The notes below the pieces were generated by a model. That model worked only from the letters and a program-made list of their open reading frames with translations, did not search any database and was not told the origin of the DNA. DNA of 64,000 bases from a virus: IMG/VR virus record IMGVR_UViG_3300042691_019444, positions 28,971 to 92,970 of that record; one strand, given 5' to 3'. Each line of letters starts with the position of its first letter. Positions within the stretch are counted from its first letter, which is position 1. Positions 63,144-63,533 of the stretch are shown piece after piece. A program made the translations under genes and the position numbers.

Positions 63144-63160
63144 GATATTTAGTGCTCTAA
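63144..63160. repeat. Left arm of a 17-bp inverted repeat around the gene at 63182
   Basis: GATATTTAGTGCTCTAA is exactly complementary to 63446-63462. The sequence that follows (GCCTGTAAC) makes it resemble the later stem at 63475-63533. Confidence 0.88.
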
Positions 63161-63181
63161 GCCTGTAACTAGGAGAGCGCC

Positions 63182-63421
63182 ATGAACATGAAACAAGTTG
63201 TAAGGTGTGTGAATGATACGCTGATGGCAGACGTCGGGATTCAGTGCACTAACGCTAGTATAGAGCGTGCAGTGCGTGAAGATTGTGCAAATGTGGCAGG
63301 GACTTACCCAAGCAAGCGCGAGATTGAATTGCTAATCATGGGGGATGATGAAGGAAACATCCCTGAAACCGTAGTATGTAGGTTTCCGAATTTGAGTGCC
63401 CTAATTAGTGAGCAGTTCTAA
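63182..63421 (+). CDS. Hypothetical protein flanked by an inverted repeat, 79 aa
   Basis: This small soluble protein has three Cys residues (C9, C23, C35) and a mostly helical outline. It is not recognised. AGGAG precedes the ATG. It lies between a perfect 17-bp inverted repeat, so its whole message could be closed by a long-range stem. A small hairpin (63428-63444) follows the stop. Confidence 0.68.
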   Translation: MNMKQVVRCVNDTLMADVGIQCTNASIERAVREDCANVAGTYPSKREIELLIMGDDEGNIPETVVCRFPNLSALISEQF

Positions 63422-63427
63422 ATCGGT

Positions 63428-63444
63428 CCGGTACGTGTTACCGG
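63428..63444 (+). terminator. Small hairpin after the gene at 63182
   Basis: CCGGTA and TACCGG pair around a 5-base loop just after the stop and before the right arm of the inverted repeat. Confidence 0.45.
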
Positions 63445-63445
63445 T

Positions 63446-63462
63446 TTAGAGCACTAAATATC
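63446..63462. repeat. Right arm of the 17-bp inverted repeat around the gene at 63182
   Basis: TTAGAGCACTAAATATC is the exact complement of 63144-63160. Confidence 0.88.
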
Positions 63463-63474
63463 AAACTGAAGTTC

Positions 63475-63533
63475 AGTGCCCCGAGCCCGTAACCATTACA
63501 ACAGAGTTGTGGGCGTTGCTGGCTCGGGGCACT
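63475..63533 (+). promoter_or_regulatory. 13-bp stem upstream of the last gene, related to the preceding inverted repeat
   Basis: AGTGCCCCGAGCC (63475-63487) pairs with GGCTCGGGGCACT (63521-63533); inside it ACAAC and GTTGT can form a second stem. The left side is the same 20-base word as 63150-63169 except for five transitions, and the right arms change to match, so pairing is kept. It sits 44 bases before the last ATG. Confidence 0.7.

Follow-up and report, generated by a model that had tools for sequence, protein, structure and literature searches.

Two related inverted repeats with covarying arms, one of them bracketing a small gene, as candidate mRNA structures in a phage genome

The window analyzed here, a 64,000-nucleotide stretch of viral DNA, corresponds to bases 28971-92970 of a virus record that is 92,970 bases long and encodes a major head protein, a large terminase, and a portal protein. 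The last 69 bases of the record are the same as its first 69 (a terminal direct repeat at window positions 63932-64000 and at L009 1-69), and this sequence is largely made of a 15-bp tandem repeat (TPAVE in the protein). Because its ends share the 69-bp repeat, the record looks complete; it is probably complete or circularly permuted, the terminal repeat being probably the place where the assembly broke a circular map. Genes for a DnaB-like helicase, a primase, a helix-turn-helix (HTH) protein, and a DEAD/ResIII helicase were found near the locus described below. Just upstream, positions 61993-62544 encode a protein with two Fis/HTH-like repeats (a 61-nt internal repeat, 72% identical), and the adjoining stretch at 62545-62930 is non-coding and contains 13 TTGCA/TGCAA words where 0.9 are expected. 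The word AAATTTC occurs four times in the phage record, each time within this stretch. By its word content, this stretch, located beside the helicase and primase genes, appears origin- or control-region-like.

The locus itself is centered on a gene of 79 codons with an AGGAG sequence six bases 5' of its ATG. Its codon score of 0.20, against a median of 0.22 for the genes and of -0.53 for off-frame sequences, corresponds to normal usage for this phage. Family searches with the 79-aa protein returned no significant family, its predicted fold was of low confidence (pLDDT 56), and the predicted folds of this protein and of the product of the next gene were too poor for a structure search. No sigma-70-type promoter was recognized at the locus, a tRNA scan was empty, and Rfam gave no match at the gathering score, the weak matches to miRNA families being hairpin noise.

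Two inverted repeats surround and follow this gene (Table 1). An earlier note on this DNA had claimed that the first, stem 1, encloses a whole small gene, and the open reading frame at 63182-63421 indeed lies between its arms. The 26-nt arms of stem 1 form 24 Watson-Crick pairs and one G-U pair with one mismatch, and a GTAAC/GTTAC block pairs past this mismatch, which is conserved in stem 2. The latter, located between the 79-aa gene and the next gene, is a continuous hairpin of 77 nt (63466-63542) with arms reaching the apex, and is composed of 8 pairs, a C.C mismatch, 13 pairs, a C.T mismatch, 5 pairs, and an apical stem. The spacers between the 26-nt arms are 267 nt in stem 1 and 21 nt in stem 2. 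The positions and pairing partners first reported were right, but both stems are longer than had been described. The arms of stem 1 fit tightly round the gene: arm a ends 1 nt 5' of its Shine-Dalgarno (SD) sequence AGGAG (63171-63175), and arm d starts 15 nt past its stop codon. Arm f of stem 2 ends about 23 nt upstream of the SD sequence of the next gene.

Table 1. Positions (in the window) of the genes, stem arms, and partial arm copies at the locus.
Feature	Start	End	Strand	Basis or remark
Arm a, 5' arm of stem 1	63144	63169	+	sequence, pairing; GATATTTAGTGCTCTAAGCCTGTAAC
79-aa gene, stop included, bracketed by stem 1	63182	63421	+	ORF, codon score
Site b, marginal near-palindromic partial match inside the gene	63234	63256	+	TTCAGTGCACTAA; may be chance
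Arm c, partial arm copy in the 3' end of the 79-aa gene	63386	63404	+	complementarity, model match
Arm d, 3' arm of stem 1	63437	63462	+	pairing with arm a; GTTACCGGTTTAGAGCACTAAATATC
Arm e, 5' half of the stem 2 hairpin	63466	63502	+	
Arm f, 3' half of the stem 2 hairpin	63506	63542	+	
Next gene	63578	64000	+	continues at record position 1 via the 69-bp terminal repeat; family searches without match

The feature is real and statistically strong. Stems 1 and 2 are the two strongest inverted repeats of the whole phage record. With a gap-free inverted-repeat score, they reached 22.8 and 23.5, whereas the best repeat in each of 200 Markov sequences of the same 64-kb length scored 14.9 on average and 20.6 at most, which corresponds to chance probabilities of about 6e-4 and 4e-4 per 64 kb. 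The 20-nt words at 63150-63169 and 63474-63493, noticed earlier as being five transitions apart and having matching partners downstream, were confirmed from the sequence; the two words share the purine/pyrimidine class of all 20 bases (P of about 2e-8 for each comparison), and a scan of the 93-kb record for purine/pyrimidine-class matches to the word within six changes found no other place. Stem 2 showed a folding z of -7.6 on the + strand and -5.3 on the - strand. In the predicted ensemble of the + strand transcript, both helices had a probability above 0.9999 (0.99998 for the helix formed by arms a and d), and the internal copy located in the gene was unable to compete.

Comparison of the two stems showed that, as previously proposed, the partner arms change to match and pairing is preserved, 18 of the 19 pairs of a 19-bp core being kept in each stem. 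Three core pairs carry changes in both arms (T-A became C-G twice and A-T became G-C once) and two vary on one side through G-U, while outside the core a T-A pair has become A-T and one more pair varies through G-U. The internal T.C mismatch became C.T, both bases being changed and the mismatch being retained in both stems. All 10 base changes in the core are transitions, compared with a background share of 43% among the differences between the phage and its relative L016, and random transitions preserved as many core pairs in merely 1.2% of trials. Within a pair, the arms match at 24/26 and 22/26 positions, versus 18-19/26 across pairs. Six changed columns are shared by two arms, from 7 and 8 changes (P = 8e-4); such shared columns would also arise from the variable columns of a binding site. 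Without the apex, stems 1 and 2 contain four G-U pairs and no A-C pair on the + (coding) strand, but this strand argument carries little weight, the pairing of c with d leaning to the opposite strand.

Paired stems usually evolve from A-U to G-U to G-C, every step of this path being a transition. The observed pattern favors selection on pairing, on the basis of one pair of paralogues in one genome, and we preferred pairing over protein sites mainly because the all-transition changes of the core fit wobble intermediates. Homogenization of repeat arms can yield a similar pattern of covariation. The earlier note had regarded covariation within one genome as good evidence for a structured element; the covariation is real, but it involves two paralogues only, with no full copies elsewhere, and the interpretation as a structured element is plausible but unproven.

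Copies of the arm word are not limited to the four stem arms, a partial fifth one being present in the 3' end of the gene (arm c). Positions 63386-63401 are complementary at 15 of 16 positions to the 3' arm of stem 2 (63527-63542). The motif AGTGCNCYRA has seven matches in the 64-kb window, all at 63151-63533: the four arms, position 63395, and the near-palindrome at 63241-63252, which is counted on both strands. Over their full length, the internal copies c and b are similar to the arms at only 13-16 of 26 positions; they are partial or marginal, yet they leave room for a reading as DNA-binding sites. With a covariance model derived from both stems, a weak third hairpin was detected at 63386-63464 (c with d; E = 0.027, - strand), in tandem with stem 2 and pairing better on the - strand. 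The units 63386-63464 and 63466-63542, aligned end to end, look like diverged duplicates.

The search for further examples in the genome and its relatives that had been suggested with this model found no full one, only the weak c-d hairpin, an outcome partly against the proposed structured element; the alignment of the model had given stem 1 the loop of stem 2, and the model thus finds short-loop copies only. No third full copy of the stem occurs elsewhere in the record. Exact scans of viral contigs with the arm words yielded 0 and 4 matches, and the four lacked a pairing partner (at best 5 mismatches in 14). Of two viral contigs, one of 24.6 kb covers window positions 13.6-36.7 kb and belongs to the same phage, and one of 6.5 kb, covering 32.5-38.7 kb, belongs to a relative (71% for the head protein); both fall short of the stem locus. 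A two-sequence alignment of the head protein led to further relatives among viral contigs, some of 72-95 kb, and to none in bacterial genomes. The primase search reached only G019, G023, and, weakly, G024, and searches of viral contigs with the 79-aa gene, the next gene, and the DnaB-like helicase returned no relatives and no phage-record match either.

In the 95-kb relative G019, the genes for DnaB, primase, two short HTH proteins, and a UvrD-type helicase follow in this order, and the whole insert, namely the gene, the stems, and the neighboring small genes, is absent between the HTH genes and the UvrD-type helicase. In the phage studied here, this position is occupied by the stems and the 79-aa gene, together with the non-coding region and several small genes. 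G023, with DnaB and primase genes, gave no stem or protein match. No such stem was present in any of the relative sequences examined, an absence made non-decisive by their divergence (52-75% identity for the head protein and about 38% for the replication proteins). This absence indicates that the element is young or confined to the close kin of the phage. An inverted repeat in G024 (L057 8619-8892), which lies in a largely non-coding region and consists of 32-nt imperfect arms and a 210-nt loop, was considered as an analogue and rejected, since no gene of its own lies within it and its sequence is unrelated to that of the stems.

Our preferred explanation, held tentatively, is that both stems act in cis as mRNA structures within a phage transcription unit, with 5'/3'-UTR pairing limiting translation in stem 1 and a processing or stability hairpin in stem 2; transcription, cleavage, and regulation are what we infer here. 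A 26-bp helix, ending one base before the SD sequence, would form in the transcript between the 5' and 3' UTRs of the 79-aa gene. Early ribosomes could load ahead of the synthesis of the 3' arm, but once this arm is made, the helix would crowd the 30S footprint and form a long double-stranded RNA. Translation of the 79-aa gene would then be throttled, and a double-strand RNase of the RNase III type could excise the gene from a polycistronic mRNA. Stem 2, the duplicated short-loop copy, may be a matching processing or stabilizing hairpin, defining the 5' terminus of the mRNA from the next gene. In favor of this explanation are the strength of the stems, the compensatory changes, the fit of the arms round a gene with normal codon usage, the dominance of both helices in the predicted ensemble, and the precedent of icaR described below. 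The presence of only two paralogous copies in one genome, with no copy in relatives, argues against a role in mRNA, as do the missing insert in G019 and the lack of a recognized sigma-70-type promoter, and the better pairing of the c-d hairpin on the - strand offsets the argument drawn from the G-U pairs. It is also conceivable, but improbable, that the locus is a gene-in-loop module, in which a single RNA element exists as a closed hairpin and as an opened form holding a whole gene, the divergence of the arms directing each to its own partner and not to that of the other form, and the gene being cut out or silenced as a unit.

Long, imperfect hairpins with internal mismatches and mutually related sequences also characterize T7-type RNase III processing sites. 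These lie between phage early genes, whereas one of the two stems described here encloses a gene, and cleavage is putative. In the icaR mRNA of Staphylococcus aureus, pairing of the 5' UTR with the 3' UTR blocks the initiation of translation and makes a substrate for RNase III (PMC3868564). As in icaR, a single gene is flanked by untranslated 5' and 3' arms that are complementary and could form a double-stranded stem at the ribosome-binding site. Unlike in icaR, the 26-bp pairing stops at 63169, one base before the SD sequence, and does not cover it, so that stem 1 could at most work like icaR; moreover, this is a phage gene, followed by a second paralogous hairpin, and known from its sequence alone. 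If confirmed, the mRNA-level role would mean that 5'/3'-UTR pairing, demonstrated in few bacterial mRNAs, also occurs in phages, and would provide a compact case of a gene bracketed by complementary arms and of a duplicated, independently coevolved hairpin before the next gene. The two paralogous stems amount to a natural compensatory-mutation experiment.

The main rival to this mRNA role, possible although less probable, is a cluster of DNA-binding sites, in which four to five copies of a site of about 26 bp in alternating orientation (a+, c+, d-, e+, f-) would be bound by a phage regulator or replication initiator, near the iteron-like non-coding region and an HTH gene. The restriction of all seven AGTGCNCYRA matches of the 64 kb to 63151-63533 is consistent with such sites, though partly by construction since four of them are the stem arms, and so are partial site c and marginal site b inside the gene, the TTGCA-rich region with all four AAATTTC words, and the double HTH (Fis-like) protein just upstream. 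Support also comes from the ESAS elements of Cluster K mycobacteriophages, imperfect 17 bp inverted repeats with a variable spacer near translation starts, which their authors read as DNA sites, rejecting hairpins because departures do not keep pairing (PMC3203893). The stems resemble ESAS in being inverted repeats near translation starts, in a non-structural part of the genome, and specific to a phage group. However, ESAS mostly have spacers of 4-13 bp, are tied to the 13-bp SAS, and occur many times with arms lacking hairpin covariation, whereas the two copies found here have spacers of 267 and 21 nt and covarying arms, and their departures support pairing. No excess of the SAS GGGATAGGAGCCC was found at up to 3 mismatches (17 matches versus 15.8 expected), and none lies at the 79-aa gene. 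The closer match of each arm to its own partner than to the other pair, with pair-preserving changes, and the dissimilarity of c and b to the arms along their whole length further weigh against binding sites. Should the locus instead be a cluster of DNA sites, it would mark a control or origin region of an uncharacterized phage group.

Three other explanations are less likely than either the mRNA role or the DNA-site cluster. The repeats may be terminal inverted repeats that delimit a tiny mobile element of about 319 bp with the 79-aa gene, stem 2 being an internally deleted relic, and the whole region is an insertion relative to G019, with 26-bp inverted repeats bracketing a gene and a short related element adjoining. 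The ultra-small mobile elements of mycobacteriophages (MPME) likewise span a few hundred bases and comprise one small gene and inverted repeats, but no match in size, gene, or repeats could be demonstrated. We consider this origin doubtful, since there is a single genomic location, with no second insertion site or copy in the phage or the relatives examined, no target-site duplication is visible in the flanks, the 79-aa protein has no transposase match, and compensatory change with wobble is unexpected for transposase sites. It is equally doubtful that these are duplicated quasi-palindromes, free of selected function, with arms homogenized by template switching or gene conversion: arm homogenization is a known mutational process for quasi-palindromes, and the tandem 63386-63464 and 63466-63542 units suggest local duplication, but homogenization should erase the mismatch, which was kept although both of its bases changed, as well as the wobbles, and the arms fit the gene borders closely. 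Finally, single-stranded DNA hairpins of a replication origin, for the loading of a primosome or initiator, would suit the proximity of the DnaB-like helicase, the primase, and the iteron-like region. Such hairpins are very unlikely, as stem 1 encloses a coding gene, no change in strand skew occurs at the locus, and no such stems were found in the relatives that share these replication genes.

Another repeated sequence, the perfect palindrome CCGCAACACGTGTTGCGG, occurs about 34 times, every 2-3 kb or so, through the whole phage record. In the window, 26 sites lie between 727 and 63108 when up to 1 mismatch is allowed (62412 and 63108 among them), with a weaker match at 12298, and outside it the palindrome is present at L009 1340, 4016, 8631, and 12052 and at L010 940, 2576, 9935, and 12493. 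This layout resembles the dispersed 17-bp palindromes carried by Cluster O mycobacteriophages (PMC4351075). Two relatives have their own palindromes of the same form, GNAACNCGNGTTNC, with 20 copies of GGAACTCGAGTTCC in G019 (L043, L050-L052) and 14 copies of GAAACCCGGGTTTC in G023 (L044, L053-L055), and the corresponding palindrome of the phage studied here, GCAACACGTGTTGC, has 30 exact copies; none of this form is dispersed in three other relatives. From their sequences, these per-phage palindromes look like a co-diverging set of regulator and operators. A variant palindrome, CGCAACACSTGTTGCG, is clustered in L021 and L023, viral contigs in which no homology to the window was detectable.
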